This document shows, piece by piece, positions 321 to 30,236 of a DNA stretch of 41,427 nt. The notes under the pieces are model-generated. The model searched no databases and was not told the DNA's origin. It saw only the letters and a list, made by a program, of their open reading frames with translations. This DNA comes from Bacteroidota bacterium (GTDB lineage Bacteria; Bacteroidota; Rhodothermia; Rhodothermales; Salinibacteraceae), in the NCBI GenBank assembly GCA_009908415.1, contig JAAAPH010000325.1, forward strand, positions 1-41,427, in the 5' to 3' direction. Position numbers and translations under genes: made by a program. Numbering within the stretch: the stretch's first letter is position 1; each line of letters starts with the position of its first letter.

Positions 321-470
321 TTACGACGAGGGAATACCGAAGGTAAACATTCGTTCAGCTGTCGTTCTGAGTAACCCGGCTTCTCGACGCAGTTTAGGGG
401 CTTCAAACGGCTTGCGTTTCTCATTAGGGTGTGTCAAATCGGAGGATTGCGACTTATTTGCTTCTTTCAT
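321..470 (-). CDS. 49-aa RiPP-precursor-like peptide
   Basis: MKEANKSQSSDLTHPNEKRKPFEAPKLRREAGLLRTTAERMFTFGIPSS*. ATG at 470 preceded by GAGGTG with 6-nt spacing (AAATGAGGTGACGACCATG). Contains FxxPxL...T resembling the YxxPxL leader motif bound by RRE proteins. Confidence 0.65.
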   Translation of the reverse strand: MKEANKSQSSDLTHPNEKRKPFEAPKLRREAGLLRTTAERMFTFGIPSS

Positions 471-548
471 GGTCGTCACCTCATTTTTTTGGATGGCTGT
501 GATATACATCTGATATCAACTCCCTAAGACGGTGGTGATTACTTCTGC

Positions 549-799: not shown

Positions 800-3166
800 C
801 TACTTGACTACGGTCATGCGACGGGTAGCGGTCTTGTTACTGGCTTGAAGGCGTAGCAGATACACGCCACTGGCAAGCGCAGCGCCGCTGGCTGCTCGAC
901 CGTTCCACCGCACCTCATGGGGCCCTGCGCTCATCGGTTGATCAACGAGCGTGGCGACCTTGCGTCCCATCACGTCGTAGACGGCCAGCATCACCGGTCC
1001 CGCCTCATCAAGCACGAAGCTGACCGTCGACGGACCCCGAGTGGGGTTCGGGTAACCGCCCTCCAGGATGAACTGAAGGGCCGGAGAGACGTCAAATTCG
1101 AGGGGCGGGTCAATCACCGTCTCGGTACCACATCCGTTGTCGGTTACCAGGAAGTAGCCGGCGTTGGGATTGTTCAGGTCCACCTGATTCAGGTGCATCA
1201 CGACGGTCGTCGGCCGGTCGCCTGGGTCATCCGCGCTCCAGTCGATATCGCTCGTAGGATCGTCGCGGGAGAAACCGACATCTCCTCCGGAGTTGCTCGA
1301 CTCGATAAGCTGCACGCTCAGGTTGATAAGGAGTGGATTGCCGCTGGGGTCGGTGAAATTCACTGTCTCGATGCCTTCCGGATCGTCGATCGTAATTTCG
1401 ACACGGCGATCTGCGTCGTTAAACACCTCGTCGAAGTCGGAGGCTAGGCACTCGGCGCTGGCCGCCGAAATGGTTGCATCAAACAGGACCGGCGAGGCAG
1501 AGGCGGAGGTGTTGCGGGCGAGTGTCATCTGAATTTCGACGAACCGGCCCTGAATGCCGTCGGCGCTGAAATCGGTACCATTCAAGACCGTGGTGAATGG
1601 TTCACTGGCTAGTCCGGCCTGCGTGTTGGCAGCCCGTACCTTGCCGGTGATGCCGGTACCGGAGGGTTCGTCGCTGTTCCAGGAGAGCGTGTTCCACAAC
1701 AGGTCAGCGCTCCCGCCATCATGGACTACCGTCCATGTACCCTGCGGGGCCGTGCTGCCAATAGCGACTACGCCGGTCATATCGCTGTAGTTGTAGGGGC
1801 CAGCACCGGCGCCGAGGTTGACAGTCAGATCCACCGTACCCAGGCCATCGCCTCCACCGTTAGGATCGATGCGCATAATATTGTTCGAGTTGAGGTTTGT
1901 CACCCACACCTTGCCCGCGGCATCAACGGCAACTCCCGTAGGGGTGAGACCAACGGAGATTACCTTGAGCACATTGCCATTACTGTCAAGTCGGGAGACA
2001 TTGCTTCCCGCACTGTTTGCAATCCAGACGTGGTTGTCACTCGGCGTAACAGCAACGCCACGGTCACCAATTGCCCCGCCGGTTGATTTCGGGAACCCAG
2101 GCTGAATGACACCGGAAGGACTTATTTTGACAACACTGTTATTGTTGAACGTGGAATTCCAAATGAACCCATTTGTGTCGATGCCCAGCCCATATGATTG
2201 CGGATTGGGAATGCAGCTTCCTGTATCGGTGTTTGTGTCGTAACGAAGTAACCTGTTTTGGGAAATGCTGGCGGACCAGAGGACGCCATTCCCATCAATA
2301 AGTCCACCGTAGCCGCCGCATCCAAAGGGGCGAGCATTAAAGGAGTCCCGGATTTCGCCAGTGCTGCCGTCCAGCTTGTGGAACCGACGCTGGGCAAAGG
2401 GGTAGCCGCCGGTCCAGACGTCGTTGTTGGCGTCCACCGATAGGTGACGCACGGCATCGGCATCCGGCGTTCGCTGAAAGATGACAATGCATTCGTCTTC
2501 GGCATCTTCCACGGTCCCGGCACCGCGGCCATCCGCGTCCGTGTCGCCAATGCCGTCAGCGCCGCCCAGGTGGTCCGTGGTGCTGTTCCATGCGAGGATA
2601 TTGCCTAATCCGCGTGAGGTTTTGATGAGTCCATCGCTGTCACGATCCACGCACGTATTATAACCGAACGGGGGAGCGAGGTATTGCCCGCTGGGATCTG
2701 GAGTGCTGGATGCGTCTACGCGTGTCCCCCCAATGATGAGTCCGATTTTGACTACGGAGCCGTGCGGAACTGAACCCAGAACTGGATCTGTGAGAAATCC
2801 TTGTTCATTCCGGTTCCCGGTCCATACGTTGCCGAACAGATCGACGGTCGTGCGGGAAGGGTTGAGCCCATACCCCTGTGGAGCGGATCGGTATTCGCCG
2901 ATGATTTCACCGGTCTCCGTGTTCGTCCGCACGACGGTTCCGCGGTTTGAAGCGGCTACATTGATGAAAGGAAAGGTCGTCGTCGTTTCGTTAAGCTGTA
3001 GCTGGTCGTTATTCGGGGCGTCGTGGTTTACGTTAACGAGGGTGCCTTCATTAAAGTCGGCATCGGTCGTGTAGGTGCGTGATTGGGCCCAGACGCTGCT
3101 AGAGATGCTCACGGTAAGTAGTAGAGCGGCGGCAGCCCACCGTAGAAAAGCATGAGAATGGCGCAT
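800..3166 (-). CDS. Secreted beta-propeller (NHL/virginiamycin B lyase-like) protein with C-terminal T9SS type A sorting domain
   Basis: Start MRHSHAFLRWAAAALLLTVSISSSVWAQ with SD GGAGG upstream (CTGGAGGCCTTTCATG), so the ORF-track start at 3379 is too far upstream. Repeated 'GxxxxVAVDAAGKVWVTNLNSNNIMRIDPNG' blades; C-term 'GGYPNPTRGPSTVSFVLDEAGPVMLAVYDVMGRKVATLV...SGVYLLRLQA...RRMTVVK'. Confidence 0.88.
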   Translation of the reverse strand: MRHSHAFLRWAAAALLLTVSISSSVWAQSRTYTTDADFNEGTLVNVNHDAPNNDQLQLNETTTTFPFINVAASNRGTVVRTNTETGEIIGEYRSAPQGYGLNPSRTTVDLFGNVWTGNRNEQGFLTDPVLGSVPHGSVVKIGLIIGGTRVDASSTPDPSGQYLAPPFGYNTCVDRDSDGLIKTSRGLGNILAWNSTTDHLGGADGIGDTDADGRGAGTVEDAEDECIVIFQRTPDADAVRHLSVDANNDVWTGGYPFAQRRFHKLDGSTGEIRDSFNARPFGCGGYGGLIDGNGVLWSASISQNRLLRYDTNTDTGSCIPNPQSYGLGIDTNGFIWNSTFNNNSVVKISPSGVIQPGFPKSTGGAIGDRGVAVTPSDNHVWIANSAGSNVSRLDSNGNVLKVISVGLTPTGVAVDAAGKVWVTNLNSNNIMRIDPNGGGDGLGTVDLTVNLGAGAGPYNYSDMTGVVAIGSTAPQGTWTVVHDGGSADLLWNTLSWNSDEPSGTGITGKVRAANTQAGLASEPFTTVLNGTDFSADGIQGRFVEIQMTLARNTSASASPVLFDATISAASAECLASDFDEVFNDADRRVEITIDDPEGIETVNFTDPSGNPLLINLSVQLIESSNSGGDVGFSRDDPTSDIDWSADDPGDRPTTVVMHLNQVDLNNPNAGYFLVTDNGCGTETVIDPPLEFDVSPALQFILEGGYPNPTRGPSTVSFVLDEAGPVMLAVYDVMGRKVATLVDQPMSAGPHEVRWNGRAASGAALASGVYLLRLQASNKTATRRMTVVK

Positions 3167-3590
3167 GAAAGGCCTCCAGGTCAATTGGTCTGCGGTATGG
3201 TTTCTGGTCGAGCCCTGCGAATCGGTTTTGCTCGCTTGGCAGACAGTATCAGGAGGCTCCCTGAGCGTAGCGCCCTGTCGATGACATACTCCTTTGTGCG
3301 AAGATGTCTGTTTCCGGACGTCGCATTTAGCACTCGAAGGGGCAGGGATTTCCTGGGGGTGATGGGAAGGGCCGCCCACAAATCGAGGAGAAAACTCCTG
3401 GCGGGAGAACGGGGGGGTCGGATTGTGGCTATCCGGTCCTAAAGAGAATACTACAGGGGCGAAATGGAGACGCCTGCCCCATTAAAACGAGCAAGTTCGG
3501 CATCAGGGGAGCCCGAGCTGCCAAGTTGAAGCGAGGAATGGAGCACCGCGGTTGAGTGCTGAGAGCCCTTAGAACCTGGTATGTTGATTT

Positions 3591-3647
3591 TTCCTCGCAA
3601 GAGGGGCACCTTCCCGATCTTGTCGGGAACGATCCGAGGACCCTCGG
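3591..3647 (+). ncRNA. Cluster of three small hairpins upstream of IS110 relic; candidate bridge/seek RNA remnant
   Basis: TTCCTC-GCAA-GAGGGG (GNRA loop; outer U-G pairs), CCCGA-TCTTG-TCGGG (3613-3627), CCGAG-GACC-CTCGG (3634-3647), all in the non-coding segment upstream of the transposase start. Confidence 0.3.
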
Positions 3648-3837
3648 ACGGGAGGCGGGTCGCCCTGGTGAGAGCCTTTGGCCCCGGTGGTTGAAGCAAT
3701 GGCTTTAAGCAGTCTCAAGTACCGGTGAGCCCATAAAGCAGATCAGTTCCCACCTCCCTTTTCGGCGCGTTTGACTCCGAACAGCATCATAGGATGTTAA
3801 GCTTACTTTTAGGACATAGATCCTGTACGTACCAGCA

Positions 3838-4713
3838 TGGAAGAGGCACCGAGTAGTTCGAGCGCCGACAGCTTCCCGGTTTCCTTGGGCATCGATGTTG
3901 GCAAGTCGGCCCTGGAACTCGCCTTGTGAGAGAGGAAACCGTTGCAAAGACAACAGTACCTAACGGTCTGGAAGGACACGAGGCCCTGTTGGGTTGGCTG
4001 CGAGGCCGAGGAACAGGCCCGGAGGAGACGTGCGTTTGCATGGAGGCGAGCGGGGAGTTTGAGGGGGCCGTCGCCGAGCGTTTGCACGAGGGAGGCTACC
4101 GGGTTAGCGTCGTCAATCCGAGGCACCCGTCCTCATCGGCGGAGAGCCGGCTTTAGGAGCTTACACGAGCCCGCCAGGCCTTCCAGAAAGAGAAAACGAG
4201 GACGCAAAGTCGGCTGGACGAGGCTGATGACAAGGCGGTTCGCCGTGCACACCACCGCGGCCTCCTCGACGAAATCGAACGTCAGATTGAGGATCTGGAG
4301 GAAGAGATCGGAGAGCACGTCGGGGAGAATCCGAAGCTAAACGGTCGATGCTCGCTGTTGGACACGATACCGGGCCTAGGCCTGCAGGCCGCTGCGACCG
4401 TTGTCACCGAGCTCGGCTCTCCCGCGCGGTAGCGACCCACGCCGGCCTAGTGCCTCGTCATCGGGAGTCGGGTACGTCCGTTCGAGTCCATCCTTGAATG
4501 TCGAAGGCCGGCAACGGACGACTCCGTCGGGCGATGTGCTTTCTGGCGATGACAGCCCTTCGATTCAATTCAGCAGTGAAGGCCTTCGGGGATCGGCTCA
4601 AGGAGCGGGGTAAGGAGACGATGGTCGTGATTGGAGCGGCCATGCGGAAGCTCTTGTATATTTGCTACGGGGTTCTCAAATCCGGTCGTCCCTTCGACCC
4701 CTCGCTCCACCGC
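3838..4713 (+). pseudogene. Degenerate IS110-family transposase
   Basis: Fragments in different frames: MEEAPSSSSADSFPVSLGIDVGKSALELAL*; ETCVCMEASGEFEGAVAERLHEGGYRVSVVNPRH; LLDTIPGLGLQAAATVVTELGSPAR*; AGLVPRHRESGTSVRVHP*MSKAGNGRLRRAMCFLAMTALRFN...GVLKSGRPFDPSLH. Matches DEDD N-term and SKxGNxxLRR catalytic-Ser region of IS110; several stops and frameshifts. Confidence 0.87.
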
Positions 4714-4765
4714 GTAGTGGGGCTGTGGACCCAGAGCGAGCGCGATGTGCAGCCGCCGGGGCCGG

Positions 4766-5710
4766 TCAAAACGCCAGCCCGCTGCGGCTCTGCTTGAGCG
4801 TCTCGGCCGACGCCTGCAGGGCCCGCCGCTCGTCGTCGGACAGCGTGGGCGTCACGCGCGCCTCGACCCCTTCGATCCCCACGACGCACGGCACGCTCAG
4901 GCACACGTCGTCGATGTCGTACGCGCCGTCCGGGCGCGTGCTTATGGGCATCACGCTTTTCTGGTCGGACAGGATGGTGCGCACGATGCGGGCGATCACG
5001 ACGCCGATGGCGGTGTCCGTGTGGCCCTTTCGGTCGATGATTTCGTAGGCTGCATCGCGGGCCTGCTCGAAAATGCCCTGCATCACGGCGCGATCGAACG
5101 GCTGGCCGAGCACGGTGCGGTCGAGGATCGGCTGGCCGCCAATCGTCGCATTGCTCCAGATGGGGGCCTCCGAGTCGCCGTGCTCGCCCAGGACGTAGGC
5201 GTGTACCGAGCGCGGATCGACGCCGTAGTGCTGGCCGAGTAGCGCCCGGAAGCGCGCCGTGTCAAGCAGCGTGCCCGTCCCAATGACGCGTTGCGCCGGT
5301 CGCTCACTCAGTTCTTGCGTGATGTACGTGAGCACGTCCACGGGATTGGTAGCAACGACCAAGATGGCGCCCGGCGCGTGCGTGTCCAGCTCCGCAATGA
5401 TCTCCCGAAAGATGTCGGCATTGCGCTGCAGCAAATCGAGGCGCGACTCGTCGGGCGACCGCTGGCTTGCCCCGGCCGAGAGGATGATCACCTGGGCCTC
5501 GGACAGGTCCGCATAGTCGCCAGCGCGCACCGTCATGCGGCTCACGAGGATCTGGCCGTGCATGAGGTCCATCGCTTCGCCCTCGGCGCGCCGCTCGTCC
5601 TTGTCGAGCAGAATAATTTCGCTGGCGAGGCTCTGGTTGAAAAGGGCATAGGCCGCCGCGGCACCGACGTTACCGGTGCCCACGATGCCTACCGTGCGTC
5701 GTTGAATCAT
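4766..5710 (-). CDS. ldh: L-lactate dehydrogenase
   Basis: MIQRRTVGIVGTGNVGAAAAYAL; GASQRSPDESRLDLLQRN (Gln at the LDH/MDH discriminator); ATNPVDVLTYI; GEHGDSE. Confidence 0.9.
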   Translation of the reverse strand: MIQRRTVGIVGTGNVGAAAAYALFNQSLASEIILLDKDERRAEGEAMDLMHGQILVSRMTVRAGDYADLSEAQVIILSAGASQRSPDESRLDLLQRNADIFREIIAELDTHAPGAILVVATNPVDVLTYITQELSERPAQRVIGTGTLLDTARFRALLGQHYGVDPRSVHAYVLGEHGDSEAPIWSNATIGGQPILDRTVLGQPFDRAVMQGIFEQARDAAYEIIDRKGHTDTAIGVVIARIVRTILSDQKSVMPISTRPDGAYDIDDVCLSVPCVVGIEGVEARVTPTLSDDERRALQASAETLKQSRSGLAF

Positions 5711-5813
5711 GCGTATGCAGGGGGAGGAGATGCAGCGAGAAGATGCAGCGTTGGGCGGACGGATGCGGGGCAGCAGCCCCGAGTTGATGGGGGCGTGGCA
5801 TGACCCGTCGGCA

Positions 5814-6269
5814 TCACGAAATCTGCGCGCCTGCCCAGAAGAGCAAGATCATGGTGGCGACGAACGAGATCACGACGATGCTGATCCACAGGAGCGCCGA
5901 CCCGGCGCTCGTACGCGCCTCTTGGACGGGGGAGGCGGTGTCGGTCGAGGCGGTAGCCACGAACGACTGCGGGGCGCTCCATGCCGTGGGTCCGGACGGC
6001 CGCTCGGCCCGGACGCGCCAGTACAGCGGGTCGGACGTACGTGGAGACAGCGGCTGGTTGAGCGTATACGTCGTCGTGGGATCCACTGTTGTATCCAGCA
6101 GGAGGCGTTCGAAATCGGGGCCCGTCGCTACCTGGAGGCGATAGCCCGTGGCATCCGGGGCGGCCTCCCAGCGAAAGGTCGGCTGCATGCCGCCCGGCGC
6201 AGGGGCTTCGTCAGCGGGGGGGAGCGGGCGAGGCGCGGCAGCCGTAGGCGATGATGAGGACGAAGGCAT
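5814..6269 (-). CDS. Fn3-like domain protein with C-terminal transmembrane anchor
   Basis: PTFRWEAAPDATGYRLQVATGPDFERLLLDTTV...LYWRVRAERPSGPTAWSAPQSF then SALLWISIVVISFVATMILLFWAG near the C-terminus. Confidence 0.65.
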   Translation of the reverse strand: MPSSSSSPTAAAPRPLPPADEAPAPGGMQPTFRWEAAPDATGYRLQVATGPDFERLLLDTTVDPTTTYTLNQPLSPRTSDPLYWRVRAERPSGPTAWSAPQSFVATASTDTASPVQEARTSAGSALLWISIVVISFVATMILLFWAGAQIS

Positions 6270-6389
6270 AGGTGTGCGACAGTCGGTTGCAGGGAACGAA
6301 CGGGAGCGGGGAAGGCTACAGGGAGGGCTTTGCCAAAAACTTGAATCCGTGCAGCGAAGTCAAGAGAATAGAGCTGCGGCTGCACCCGT

Positions 6390-7268
6390 TCACGAGCTGG
6401 ACGCCGCAGAGTTGGACGGCGGCGCGACCAGGGATGGGCCAAACGAATGGACCAGAAAGATTGACGCGTCGAGCCGGCGCACCAGCTTGTCAGCCACGGT
6501 GCCCAACGGGTGGTCGGACTGGCCGGTGGACCCGTGGGAGGACAGAACGACCAAATCGCTGTCGGGCTCGTCCGCGAAGGAGGAAATTTCGTGGGCGGGA
6601 TCGCCGTGCACGATGTGGAACGCCACGTCGACGGCCGGGCCGTCCGTATCCTCCAGGAGCGTCTTTGCGCGCCGCAAGGCGCGCCGCTCCGGCAGTTTGG
6701 CATCCGAGAGGGCCAGCATATCGGTCGAGTTGAGCGCCACGTATGGAGGGCGCTCCAGCACGTGGAGCACGTGCAGCGGCGCGTCGAAGAGCGCCGCCAG
6801 CATTCGCGCGTGGGTCAGGCTCCGCTGCGCGTGCCGCGAGAAGTCGATCGGGGCGAGCACCCGCCGGATCGGCTGCGTGGCCGCCGCAGCGCGGCCGACG
6901 ATATGTACGGGGAGCGAGGTGCGCCGCGTGAGGTCGAAGCGTTCGTGCGCGGGCAAGGCGGCCACGATCAGATCGATGTCGTGCTCTGCTGCGTACCAGA
7001 GGGCCCCTTGGGTCAGGGAGGGCGCGTCCACATCCATGGCTCGCAGGTTGGTCAAGGGCAGGTCCATGCGCTGCGCGACGTCTTGCACGCGGCGACGAAC
7101 GGCCGAGGACGGGCGAGCAGTTGGCGGTGCCGGGACAGAGTCGCCACCCGCCACGTGCGTTTCTACAACATGCACGGTGGCCTGCAAACGGTGGCCCCAG
7201 AACAAGGCCTGCGAGAGAGCAGAGTCGGCCGAATCGACGGGCACCAAAATGTTAGCAATGCGAAGCAT
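6390..7268 (-). CDS. Universal stress protein, tandem USP domains
   Basis: MLRIANILVPVDSADSALSQAL...; second domain IRRVLAPIDFSRHAQRSLTHARMLAALFDAPLHVLHV...SDLVVLSSHGSTG. Confidence 0.88.
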   Translation of the reverse strand: MLRIANILVPVDSADSALSQALFWGHRLQATVHVVETHVAGGDSVPAPPTARPSSAVRRRVQDVAQRMDLPLTNLRAMDVDAPSLTQGALWYAAEHDIDLIVAALPAHERFDLTRRTSLPVHIVGRAAAATQPIRRVLAPIDFSRHAQRSLTHARMLAALFDAPLHVLHVLERPPYVALNSTDMLALSDAKLPERRALRRAKTLLEDTDGPAVDVAFHIVHGDPAHEISSFADEPDSDLVVLSSHGSTGQSDHPLGTVADKLVRRLDASIFLVHSFGPSLVAPPSNSAASSS

Positions 7269-19516: not shown

Positions 19517-20533
19517 ATGTCGCACAGGCCGAAGACCTTCCAGAAAGAATCCATTACCGTCGAGTTCATGGTGCGCCAGCTGCGCGAGTCGGTGGGCGTT
19601 GAGATTGAGGCGTTGAACGACGCCGATGCGAGCACGCGAGACGTGACCGAGAGCAACTTGCACCGTCCGGGGCTCGCGCTCGCCGGCTACGTCGATCTGT
19701 TCACGCACCAGCGCGTGCAGATCATCGGCAACACGGAAAGTCGGTACCTGAACCATCTGGACGCGGCAGCGCGGGAAGATGCCTTCGAGCACCTCACCCA
19801 GTTCCCGGTGCCCTGCATCATCGTTACCGCCGGCAACCCGTTCGAGGACGGGTTGGTTGACCGGGCGGCCGACGAAGGCATCCCCGTGTACCGGACGCCG
19901 CTCCCCACCGTGCGCTTCATGGCGGCCCTGCGCGGCTTTTTGACGGACCAGTTCGCGCCCCAACGGACCGTGCACGGCTCGCTGGTCGACGTCTACGGGA
20001 TTGGCATTCTCCTCATCGGGAAGTCCGGGATTGGCAAGAGCGAAGTGGCGCTCGATCTCGTGGAGCGGGGCCACCGCCTGGTGGCCGACGACGTCGTCAT
20101 CGCAACCAAGCAGGAGGGGCCGATCGTCATGGGCTCGGGCACCGACCTGGTGCAGCATTTCATGGAAGTGCGGGGGCTGGGCCTCGTGGACGTGCGGGCC
20201 ATGTTCGGCATCCGCGCCATCCGCTTCCAGAAGCGAATCGAGGTCGTAGTTAATATGCAGCTCTGGGATGCCGATAAGGAGTACACACGCATCGACATGA
20301 TCGAAGACACCCATGACATACTGGGCGTTGACCTGCCCATGGTGCAACTGCCCATCACGCCCGGCAAGAACATCACCGTGATCTGCGAGGTGATTGCCAT
20401 GAACTATCTGCTCCGGCACTACGGCTACGATCCGGCCGAGGTCTTTACCGAGCGGCTCCGGGATCAGATCCGGAGCGAAGGCGCCTCCGTGCCCGCACGG
20501 GGCATTGAGTACTTCGAGGGCGATTACGAGTGA
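19517..20533 (+). CDS. hprK: HPr(Ser) kinase/phosphorylase
   Basis: GILLIGKSGIGKSEVALDLVERGHRLVADDVV; MEVRGLGLVDVRAMFGIRAIRFQKRIEVVVNMQLWD; LPITPGKNITVICEVIAMNYLLRHYGYD. Confidence 0.96.
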   Translation: MSHRPKTFQKESITVEFMVRQLRESVGVEIEALNDADASTRDVTESNLHRPGLALAGYVDLFTHQRVQIIGNTESRYLNHLDAAAREDAFEHLTQFPVPCIIVTAGNPFEDGLVDRAADEGIPVYRTPLPTVRFMAALRGFLTDQFAPQRTVHGSLVDVYGIGILLIGKSGIGKSEVALDLVERGHRLVADDVVIATKQEGPIVMGSGTDLVQHFMEVRGLGLVDVRAMFGIRAIRFQKRIEVVVNMQLWDADKEYTRIDMIEDTHDILGVDLPMVQLPITPGKNITVICEVIAMNYLLRHYGYDPAEVFTERLRDQIRSEGASVPARGIEYFEGDYE

Positions 20534-25222: not shown

Positions 25223-25438
25223 GCGCGTCTGCCGGCCGGCGTTGTGCAGCGCGGCGCCTCGTGCCGCGGCCGGTCCGGACCCCGTTCCGTGATGCCGGTG
25301 CGGCGTGCGATAATGCGTGAATCCTGCTATAACCGGCGGCACGATGGATCTCAGGCCCCGGGCGTATCGTTTGCACGATGCTTCGTTGGTCGAGCCCGTC
25401 CGGCCCGCTTCCTCTCCTCCACGCACCCCCTTGATGGC

Positions 25439-27241
25439 ATGCGTCCGCTTGCACGGCTGAATCACTACTTCTGGACGTACAAGCACCTCTTCATCCCAGG
25501 GCTTCTCTTCACGATCATCTCGGCCGGCTTCCAGATCACCGTGCCGATGGTTGTCCGGCAGGCGATCGACAGCATCCCCCAGTTTGTGCGGCTGCAAGGC
25601 TTGTTTGAGGGGACGGGCGCGCAAGGCGTGCTCTACCAGTACCTGTTTATCGGCCTCCTCGTCTTTGCCGGAGCCATCGTGGCGCTCACGCTCGTGAGCG
25701 GCGTATTCAAGTTTTTGATGCGGCAGACCGTGGTCGTCGCCTCGCGGCACATCGAGTACGACCTGCGTAATGCGCTCTACGATCACCTGCAGACGCTCTC
25801 GCCCAAGTTCTACCAGGACTACTCGACGGGCGATGTCATCACGCGGGCCACGGACGACATCGAGAAGGTACGGCGCTACATCGGGCCGGCCATCATGTAC
25901 ATCACCCGCTCGCTCTCGATGGTGCTGGTGGCCCTGGCGGTGATGTTCGCCATTTCGCCCACGCTCACGCTCTACGCGCTCATCCCGATGCCGCTCTTGG
26001 CCGTGTCGGTGTTCTTCATGGCGCGCATGGTCCACCACCGCAGCGACCGGTTGCAGAGGCAGTACTCCAGCCTCACGAGCCGCGTGCAGGAGGCGCTCTC
26101 CGGCATCCGCGTGCTTAAGGCGTACACCCGCGAGCCGTCCGAGGCCGAGGCGTTCGAAGGCGAGAGCGACGAGTACAAAGATCGCAACCTCGACCTCGCG
26201 CTCGTGGAGGCGGCCTGGCGGCCGGCCTTTTTGCTGCTCGTCGGGATGTCGACCATCATCGTCGTGTGGGTCGGTGGGCGGCTCGTGGTGGAAGGCGTCA
26301 TCACGATTGGCAACATCGCCGAGTACATCATCTACGTTGCGCTCATGACGTGGCCCGTCGCGTCGATGGGCTTCGTGATCACGATGGTGCAGCGCGCCTC
26401 GGCGTCGGTCATCCGCCTCAACAAGATCCTCGACACCGAGCCCGCCATTCAGGACGACGAGCGGACGGATGCCTCTATCGAAGCCATCGAGGGCCGCATC
26501 GCGTTCCGGCACGTCAGCTTCCGCTACGAAGAGGAGGAGCCGCTCGTGCTCGACGACATCCACTTTGAGTTGCCGGCCGGCGGCACGCTCGGCATCGTCG
26601 GGCGCACCGGCGCGGGCAAGAGCACGCTCGTGGAGATGATCCCACGCCTCATCGAGCCGGACGAGGGTCTGGTGGAGATCGACGGGCACGACATCCGGCA
26701 GATTCCGCTGAAGGTGCTGCGCCGGTCGATCGGCTACGTGCCGCAAGACGTCTTTCTCTTCAGCGATACGGTGGCCAACAACATCGCCTTCGGCGTGCTC
26801 GACGCGGACGACGACGCCATCCGTGATGCGGCGGACGAGGCCGAACTGCTGGACAACATTCAAGACTTCCCGGATGGCTTCGAGACGTACGTGGGCGAGC
26901 GGGGCATCACGCTCTCCGGCGGCCAGAAGCAGCGCACCTCGATTGCCCGCGCACTCATCCGCGATCCCGAAATTCTAATCTTCGACGACTCGCTCTCGGC
27001 GGTCGACACGGCCACCGAGCGGCGCATCCTGCGCCACCTGCGCGCGCGGCAGGGCAAGCACACACTCGTCATCGTGAGCCACCGCATCTCTGCCGTGCAG
27101 GACGCGGATCTCATCCTGGTGCTCGACGAGGGGCGCGTGGCTGAGCGCGGCACGCACGACGAACTGTGCGCGAGCGATGGCCTCTACGCCACCCTCCACC
27201 GCAAGCAACTCCTCGAAGAAGAAATCGAAGCGATGAGCTAG
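25439..27241 (+). CDS. ABC transporter, fused permease/ATPase (half-exporter A)
   Basis: MRPLARLNHYFWTYKHLFIPGLLF...; Walker A GRTGAGKST; signature LSGGQKQR; Walker B-region EILIFDDSLSAVD. Confidence 0.95.
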   Translation: MRPLARLNHYFWTYKHLFIPGLLFTIISAGFQITVPMVVRQAIDSIPQFVRLQGLFEGTGAQGVLYQYLFIGLLVFAGAIVALTLVSGVFKFLMRQTVVVASRHIEYDLRNALYDHLQTLSPKFYQDYSTGDVITRATDDIEKVRRYIGPAIMYITRSLSMVLVALAVMFAISPTLTLYALIPMPLLAVSVFFMARMVHHRSDRLQRQYSSLTSRVQEALSGIRVLKAYTREPSEAEAFEGESDEYKDRNLDLALVEAAWRPAFLLLVGMSTIIVVWVGGRLVVEGVITIGNIAEYIIYVALMTWPVASMGFVITMVQRASASVIRLNKILDTEPAIQDDERTDASIEAIEGRIAFRHVSFRYEEEEPLVLDDIHFELPAGGTLGIVGRTGAGKSTLVEMIPRLIEPDEGLVEIDGHDIRQIPLKVLRRSIGYVPQDVFLFSDTVANNIAFGVLDADDDAIRDAADEAELLDNIQDFPDGFETYVGERGITLSGGQKQRTSIARALIRDPEILIFDDSLSAVDTATERRILRHLRARQGKHTLVIVSHRISAVQDADLILVLDEGRVAERGTHDELCASDGLYATLHRKQLLEEEIEAMS

Positions 27242-28358: not shown

Positions 28359-30236
28359 GTGGGCATCACGGATCCTCCCCTGCGCCTCCCTTTCTCCACG
28401 AACCCCCGCATCGATTTGAGTTCGACGGACACCGCACACGATAACGAGAACCAGCGCGATACGCCCGGGCTGGACAGCCGGCTGCTGCAGCGCATCGGGA
28501 CGTACCTGCGGCCGTACACGGGATGGGTGGTGCTTGCGCTCACCCTCACGCTTGGCGCGTCGCTGCTCGGCCCGTTGCGCCCGTTTCTCGTCCAGAAGGC
28601 GATCGACAACTACATCGTACTGGGCGACCTCGACGGGCTGGAGCGCATTATTCTGTTCTTGGTACTCGCCCTGGTGGGGGAGGGCATCCTTGCCTTCGCC
28701 AAGAACTACCTGACGCAGTGGATCGGCCAGCACGCCATCTACGACCTGCGGACGAAAGTCTTCCGCCACATCCAAAACCAGCCGCTTGCCTTCTTCGACC
28801 GGACGCCGATCGGCCGCCTCATCACGCGGACGACCTCCGACGTGGAGGCGCTGAGCGACGTCCTTTCGTCGGGCCTCGTCGTCATCATGGGCGACCTGTT
28901 CCGGCTCATCTTCATCACCTACTTCATGTTCACGCTGAACGCGACGCTGGCCCTCGTCACGCTGGCCGTGATGCCGCTCATGGTGTGGGTCACGTTCTGG
29001 TTCCGGAAGAACGCGCGCGAGATGTACCGCGAGACGCGCAAGCAGGTGGCGCGGATCAACTCGTTCATGCAGGAGCACGTGACGGGCATGCGCATCGTGC
29101 AGCTCTTCAACCGGGAGAAGGAGGAGATGGACCGGTTCGAGGGGATCAACGACGACCACCGGCAGGCGCAGGTCCATACCATCTTTTACTTCGCCATCTT
29201 CTGGCCGGCCGTCCAGATCATCGCCGATGTGGCACTGGGCGCCATCATCTGGTTCGGCGGCCTGCAGGCGATGGCGGGGTCGCTCACGCTCGGCGTCGTG
29301 ATCGCATTCATCCAGTACGCGCGGCAGTTCTTCGACCCCATCCGCAACCTGTCGAACCAGTACAATACGCTCCAGCGGGCCATGGCCGGCGCCGAGCGCA
29401 TCTTCGGCTTGCTGGATGAGGACCACGCCATTGAGGAGCCCGACGCGCCCGTGGAGCTCGGCCGTGTCGACGGCGCCATCGAGTTCAAGAACGTGTGGTT
29501 CGCCTACGAAGACGGCGAGGACGGCACTCCCAACTGGGTGCTCAAAGACATCTCGTTCAAGGCCGAGCCGGGCCAGACCGTGGCGCTCGTCGGGGCAACG
29601 GGCGCCGGGAAGTCGACCATCATGAACGCCCTGCTCCGCTTCTACGAGATCCAGCGCGGCGAAATCCTCGTCGACGGCGTGGACATCCGGCAACTCCGCC
29701 TGCGCGACCTGCGGCGCCACCTCGGGATGATCCTGCAAGACGTCTTCCTGTTTTCGGGCTCCATCGAGAAGAACCTGACGCTGAACGATGACCGCATTAC
29801 GGAGGCGCAGATGCGGAAGGCTGCCGAGCTCGTGCAGGCCGACCGGTTCATCGACCAGCTGCCAAACGGCTACCAGCAGGACGTGAAGGAGCGCGGCGCG
29901 TCGCTCTCGCAGGGGCAGCGGCAGCTCCTCTCGTTCGTGCGGGCGCTCGTCTACGACCCCGAGGTCCTCGTGCTGGACGAGGCCACCTCCAGCGTAGACA
30001 CCGAGACGGAGGAGCTCATCCAGAACGCGATCAACCGGCTGATGGAGGGCCGCACGACACTCGCCATCGCGCACCGCCTCTCCACCATCCAGGACGCCGA
30101 CCAGATCCTCGTGCTGCACAAAGGCGCGATCCGCGAGCGCGGCACGCACCAGGAGCTGCTGGCCATGGACGGCCTCTACCGTAAGCTGTACGAGCTCCAG
30201 TACCGCGACCAGGAGCGGGTTGAGGCCGGGGCGTAG
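28359..30236 (+). CDS. ABC transporter, fused permease/ATPase (half-exporter B)
   Basis: Walker A GATGAGKST; signature LSQGQRQ; VLVLDEATSSVDTETE; six-TM exporter N-half. Exact start uncertain (GTG 28359 or TTG about 28416). Confidence 0.94.
   Translation: MGITDPPLRLPFSTNPRIDLSSTDTAHDNENQRDTPGLDSRLLQRIGTYLRPYTGWVVLALTLTLGASLLGPLRPFLVQKAIDNYIVLGDLDGLERIILFLVLALVGEGILAFAKNYLTQWIGQHAIYDLRTKVFRHIQNQPLAFFDRTPIGRLITRTTSDVEALSDVLSSGLVVIMGDLFRLIFITYFMFTLNATLALVTLAVMPLMVWVTFWFRKNAREMYRETRKQVARINSFMQEHVTGMRIVQLFNREKEEMDRFEGINDDHRQAQVHTIFYFAIFWPAVQIIADVALGAIIWFGGLQAMAGSLTLGVVIAFIQYARQFFDPIRNLSNQYNTLQRAMAGAERIFGLLDEDHAIEEPDAPVELGRVDGAIEFKNVWFAYEDGEDGTPNWVLKDISFKAEPGQTVALVGATGAGKSTIMNALLRFYEIQRGEILVDGVDIRQLRLRDLRRHLGMILQDVFLFSGSIEKNLTLNDDRITEAQMRKAAELVQADRFIDQLPNGYQQDVKERGASLSQGQRQLLSFVRALVYDPEVLVLDEATSSVDTETEELIQNAINRLMEGRTTLAIAHRLSTIQDADQILVLHKGAIRERGTHQELLAMDGLYRKLYELQYRDQERVEAGA

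Follow-up and report, generated by a model that had tools for sequence, protein, structure and literature searches.

A peptide gene and its upstream neighbor

The window, i.e., the whole stretch of 41,427 nucleotides analyzed here, belongs to a draft MAG of 4.27 Mb that is 84.8% complete (G000). Near its beginning, a gene encoding a 49-aa peptide runs on the minus strand from an ATG at 470 to a stop codon at 323-321, directly downstream of a gene whose product is predicted to be exported by the type IX secretion system (T9SS). The features of this locus are as follows:

800..3379, minus strand: secreted beta-propeller-like partner protein, predicted to be T9SS-exported, directly upstream of the precursor (sorting domain; same arrangement in relatives)
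1070..1453, minus strand: undescribed Ig-like pre-CTD domain (alignments, profile search, structural model with pLDDT 89)
803..1066, minus strand: T9SS type A C-terminal sorting domain (TIGR04183, 35.7 bits with a cut-off of 23; PF18962, 27.7 bits with a cut-off of 27)
477..482, minus strand: Shine-Dalgarno sequence GAGGTG, 6 nt 5' of the ATG
321..470, minus strand: precursor peptide gene, 49 aa (ORF, homologues, dN < dS in relatives)
390..416, minus strand: leader motif RKPFEAPKL, residues 19-27, predicted to bind an RRE (invariant R, F, P and L in the alignment)
357..362, minus strand: conserved Thr37 and Ala38, the expected leader/core boundary (T-x; cleavage placed as in lasso leaders)
324..356, minus strand: predicted core ERMFTFGIPSS, whose C-terminal Ser is a predicted phosphosite by analogy with HprK homologues (PMC8498205)

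The peptide reads MKEANKSQSSDLTHPNEKRKPFEAPKLRREAGLLRTTAERMFTFGIPSS, with the leader RKPFEAPKLRREAGLLRTTA; it carries no signal sequence, is encoded once in G000 and matches none of the Pfam and NCBIfam models. The original prediction had placed the start at the ATG at 470, with GAGGTG 6 nt upstream, and had proposed a precursor of the RiPP type, with a leader of the RRE type, from FEAPKL and a following Thr. The sequence agrees with both the start and the register, which is formed by F22, P25, L27 and T37. The partner protein qualifies as T9SS cargo with a sorting domain scoring above the curated cut-off, and its gene probably starts at an internal Met before RHSHAFLRWAAAALLLTVSISSSVWA. The spacer between the two genes (471-799, about 330 nt) contains many short inverted repeats; the segment 525-640 was considered as a repeat family and rejected, being single-copy in the genome.

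Sequence comparison indicates that 321-470 is a real gene, a random ORF being ruled out by the homologues, the dN/dS values and the Markov shuffles. Clear homologues were found in two genomes of a single genus of the same family among the 60 relatives searched (one is Salinibacter altiplanensis AN15), and further members of the peptide family are present in other families of Rhodothermales among these relatives, where the distribution of precursors is patchy. The strict pattern of leader plus Thr is matched by two ORFs of the window (the second being the terminal part of a long gene at 21.7 kb), compared with a mean of 0.13 across 100 Markov shuffles. The aligned peptides retain R19, F22, P25, L27, R29 and T37, the register in the Rhodothermales relatives is [FY]xxPx[LIVM]-x9-T, and the aromatic residue and the Thr are 15 residues apart in 26 of the 27 collected peptides. 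We observed dN < dS in six pairs of relatives (dN/dS of 0.17-0.74 for the whole peptide and 0.08-0.39 for the last 31 codons; in the G020/G015 pair, dS = 0.94 and dN = 0.08 over these codons), a test that covers relatives, none of them a congener of the window genome. The original prediction had made its case depend on conservation of the frame in relatives, and the frame is indeed conserved.

Predicted core peptides and candidate maturation enzymes

Lasso leaders are cut after T-x. The same cut would release ERMFTFGIPSS in the window, DVTFTFGTAPMS in G033 and cores of only 6 residues in the putative Rhodothermus-genus genomes (GSFNFS, GGFVFS or GSFDFS), and the predicted cores range from 6 to 17 aa across the system. 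A C-terminal Ser is found in 19 of the 27 peptides, the other eight ending in P, T, W or R. Paeninodin-type kinases, which are HprK homologues, phosphorylate such a C-terminal Ser (PMC8498205). No ring acceptor is conserved, and a core of only 6 residues is too short to form a lasso. The T-x core of the window had been described as devoid of a lasso ring acceptor, which is correct (no Asp or Glu at positions 7-9). The alternative of a macrolactam between Gly1 and Glu8 after cleavage behind REA fails, as this segment is part of the leader that is conserved: at that stretch, relatives have RET-DLIRGTGD or RLGDVREITGD, so the Gly is not conserved.

Neither an RRE nor a lasso protease or cyclase was detected by profile searches of the window, as had been noted, and a canonical hprK (19517-20533) is the sole related gene. 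Two genes of MsbA-like ABC half-transporters (25244-27241 and 28359-30236, plus strand) lie 25 kb from the precursor and may be housekeeping genes. These three genes were set aside as probably unrelated. Maturation in trans had been proposed instead, and candidate enzymes were found on contig C344 of the same MAG, which carries the only RRE of G000 above the cut-off (PF05402 profile search). The features of C344 are as follows:

263-2701 and 2735-3562, plus strand: two genes with a T9SS CTD
3603-3713, minus strand: second precursor, MDTTDPARKPFVPPTLERLDDLVQATSQKFPPPPAS
3816-4871, minus strand: HprK-like kinase
4974-5255, plus strand: RRE (PqqD)
5318-6481, minus strand: NTP_transf_5 protein (PF14907, 1e-57)

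The tetranucleotide profiles of the window and C344 are highly correlated (r = 0.988), and their placement in one bin rests on composition and assembly. The nearest solved structure to the C344 RRE is TbiB1, a lasso RRE, and together with the leader motif this strongly suggests that the RRE binds the leader. The kinase retains the HprK motifs (His141, Walker A G161-K162 and D179-D180). By eye, we recognized neither an SpI-like leader peptidase nor an MsbA-like exporter among the predicted genes of C344. The rest of the genome had been proposed as a place to look for an RRE or for lasso B and C proteins: the former is present on C344, whereas G000 yielded no match to the B2 leader protease (PF13471) and only partial, AsnB-like matches to the lasso cyclase profile (PF00733). 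These absences are not proof, since G000 is an incomplete draft.

Similar enzyme sets were found in the relatives. Cassettes with a precursor, kinase and RRE, with or without the NTase, and lacking a cyclase are present in G005, G047, G001 and G009, while cassettes acting in trans would serve G013, G008, G016, G027 and the putative Rhodothermus-genus genomes. Kinase, RRE and NTase occur with no cyclase nearby in G005, G027, G042, G028, G078, G079 and G080, and kinase and RRE, with no NTase detected and no cyclase nearby, in G013, G008, G016 and G047. The cassettes of G001, G009 and G044 are more divergent; they contain the precursor, and so do those of C344, G005 and G047. The putative Rhodothermus-genus genomes have compact cassettes (NTase-B2-kinase-RRE) that include no precursor; the T9SS-linked precursors located elsewhere in these genomes would therefore need service in trans. 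A scan of GTDB contigs for the kinase returned only S. altiplanensis (G015) and a distant actinobacterium.

The peptide could be a lasso precursor whose cyclase and B2 protease are missing merely because the genome is a draft. Its leader ([YFW]xxPx[LIVM] followed by a Thr) and its RRE are of the lasso type, and genuine lasso clusters are found in the vicinity of members of the peptide family in G020, G015, G028 and G042. However, no lasso cyclase or B2 protease was detected in the draft G000, the T-x core has no ring acceptor, the homologous cores of 6 residues are too short, and G016 (90% complete) possesses a precursor, an RRE and a kinase yet zero matches to PF13471 or PF00733. In addition, a tree of 50 RREs places the cyclase-linked RREs within one supported clade (97/94) and the 16 RREs of the cassettes, among them the one on C344, all outside of it, in a topology based on few columns and with many unresolved forks. 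We consider a lasso precursor extremely unlikely, and the suggestion that the peptide might represent a class other than the described lasso peptides is supported.

Apparent genuine lasso clusters were observed separately in G020 (L077/L031, contig C1, 238-253 kb), G015 (L079/L032, contig C3), G028 (L186), G042 (L122) and G033 (L081). They combine an RRE, an Asn-synthetase-type cyclase and an HprK-like kinase, some with a B2 protease, and their precursors include, for example, MNEKKEYIKPSIVNYGSVEEVTRGGGASSSDG... and MRNTKRSWKTPVLVVHGKTQEITAGSCWYGKQGG...; several of the clusters are no more than about 15 kb away from a T9SS-linked precursor. A tandem pair of lasso-type precursors (MKTKSIWAAPALQVHGSVESVTGKDFDEANC... 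and MSNFQAWSAPKLSLHGSVESLTGGDFDEANC...) is found near a cyclase in G013 (L087, contig C201), and one genome of the order presents an unusual RRE-like expansion, with 12 PqqD-domain matches on few contigs (G032, C181 and C118).

Pairing with T9SS proteins and the pre-CTD domain

The precursor had been described as an orphan, a status that it loses here: it forms a unit with the T9SS gene directly upstream. The same succession of a T9SS gene and a precursor on one strand was observed in the window, G020, G015, G033 (three loci), G013, G016, G027, G047 (two loci) and the putative Rhodothermus-genus genomes, and the T9SS genes are convergent neighbors of the precursor on C344 and in G005. Overall, a T9SS gene is adjacent in 13 of the 14 evaluable matches to the peptide profile (E ≤ 1e-3), and each genome contains only 15-141 T9SS genes. 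We found no paper linking T9SS, Rhodothermus or Salinibacter with such a RiPP or lasso-type system in the full text of the openly licensed papers searched, and the pairing itself appears in no paper of that literature.

Most partner proteins share a domain of about 120 aa directly N-terminal to the sorting domain; G, N, P, C and DP are invariant in it, and its first Cys nearly so. AlphaFold2 predicted a confident all-beta fold (pLDDT 89, pTM 0.80), and a search for this fold in the PDB returned generic Ig-like matches only, none with E ≤ 0.001. The N-terminal halves above the domain differ, with a beta-propeller in the window and a beta-helix in G020. The vWA-like protein of C344 possibly contains a divergent copy (hhalign probability 71, E = 3.7e-5). 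In some cases (G047, G001 and G044), the T9SS protein adjoining the precursor lacks this domain.

Other T9SS-linked arrangements were also observed. Two precursors of another type in G047 (contigs C20 and C5; L124 and L126) have longer acidic cores ending in GGDPSDDPS or GGDPTDDPS, and their partners show no apparent relation to the pre-CTD domain. In G020, G015 and two loci of G033, the precursor is followed directly by a second conserved T9SS protein (which begins ...DFVVEQSAPA...DTVAFSF...), forming a T9SS-precursor-T9SS triplet (L031, 5933-7936; L032; L033; L123); the window has no such second protein.

We then searched 115 genomes of the order with a profile of the domain only, which gave 23 matches. 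A precursor-like peptide lies directly downstream in 18 of the 22 readable domain genes, including cases that had not contributed to the profile (G028, G078 twice, G077, G008, G037 and G027); the remaining four genes represent two orthologue pairs. Strong kinase matches are present in 14 of the 15 domain-positive genomes (the exception is G077) relative to 3 of the 100 others (Fisher test, P = 3e-14), and an RRE was found in all 14 precursor-positive genomes of the 60 relatives (P = 3e-4); these P-values ignore shared ancestry, the relatives being non-independent samples. The three domain-negative genomes with a kinase (G005, G047 and G048) all present precursor-like peptides. Finally, among 397 sampled genomes of the phylum, the domain was detected only within Rhodothermales.

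The co-occurrence of RREs with precursors and of the kinase with the domain, the presence of several precursors within an enzyme cassette and the maintenance of the 15-residue register argue against an unmodified small protein that would serve the T9SS protein, for instance as a chaperone or stability factor, and resemble a leader by accident. Such a helper would fit the observations that adjacency to T9SS genes exceeds adjacency to enzymes and that many precursors lie far from enzymes; we nevertheless regard it as very unlikely. A second explanation accepts the modification and assigns the peptide to a regulator or toxin-like product, the T9SS link then reflecting shared regulation or mobile cargo with no physical interaction. 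The lack of a signal sequence in the peptide and of an exporter in the C344 cassette, the differing N-terminal halves of the partners and the patchy distribution all agree with this explanation, which is a serious possibility, if short of probable. In contrast, a precursor can be predicted from the shared pre-CTD domain in different families of the order, which would be unexpected if the neighbor were irrelevant.

Known systems and a proposed function

Clusters for linear polyphosphorylated peptides (LPPs) combine an RRE, an HprK-like kinase and an NTP transferase without a cyclase and produce linear phosphorylated peptides; they have been reported from Bacillota only (PMC13381572, Nat Commun 2026). 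Judging from gene content, the Rhodothermales system resembles the LPPs: both present a discrete lasso-type RRE, an HprK-like kinase and an NTP transferase with no macrolactam cyclase, a leader of the [Y/W]xxP type and frequent proximity to lasso clusters. However, the window leader follows FxxPxL-x9-T and not the LPP pattern YxxPxVLxHQxIxFETxxS, and the cores have 6-17 aa and mostly end in Ser, whereas the 45-aa LPP core is phosphorylated at Ser3. LPP clusters also include an SpI-like peptidase and an MsbA-like exporter, neither of which was recognized in the cassette here, where some relatives have a B2-type protease. The chief difference is the pairing with T9SS proteins: LPPs neighbor capsule loci, whereas the present precursors are scattered.

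Phosphorylated lasso peptides of the paeninodin/pseudomycoidin type similarly involve an RRE, an HprK homologue acting on the C-terminal Ser and a nucleotidyltransferase (PMC8498205), but our system differs in its lack of a lasso cyclase and ring acceptor, in precursors that are not clustered with the enzymes and in its T9SS partner. The HPr-rel-A system (TIGR04352/TIGR04353) likewise joins an HprK-related kinase to a PqqD-family protein; the C344 proteins are not members, since they score below the cut-offs (kinase, 44.5 bits for a cut-off of 200; PqqD, 25.1 bits for a cut-off of 35). As for T9SS type A cargo, the partner proteins have the standard sorting domain but differ in their dedicated, undescribed pre-CTD domain and the linked RiPP-type precursor gene.

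Our conclusion, held with good confidence, is that this gene specifies a RiPP precursor whose short, linear product is phosphorylated at the C-terminus and paired with a T9SS surface protein. From the genes, we infer the following steps. The discrete PqqD-type RRE of C344 would bind FxxPxL in the leader, the adjoining HprK-like kinase would phosphorylate the C-terminal Ser of ERMFTFGIPSS, and the neighboring NTP_transf_5 protein may attach a sugar or nucleotide to the phosphate, with no cyclase involved. The leader may be cut after T-x by the B2-type protease where present (putative Rhodothermus-genus cassettes) and by another protease in the window genome. Each precursor would be matched by one T9SS-exported protein, usually with the dedicated Ig-like pre-CTD domain, and the likeliest role of the modified peptide would be that of a ligand or attachment of this surface protein. 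That the core binds the pre-CTD domain is the reading of the gene pairing that we prefer, with rather less than even confidence. With similarly limited confidence, the system may represent a new class of RiPPs: a T9SS-exported surface protein would have its own very short peptide, phosphorylated or phosphoglycosylated, as a ligand or covalent attachment, a purpose-built Ig-like domain would recognize this peptide, and one enzyme set would serve several such pairs per genome.

The gene-by-gene association of a similar enzyme set with a defined exported partner makes the function of phosphorylated lasso peptides and LPPs testable. The putative Rhodothermus-genus genomes, with their compact RRE-kinase-B2-NTase cassette and 6-residue cores, are suited to laboratory tests. 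The system would also join RiPP chemistry to type IX secretion.
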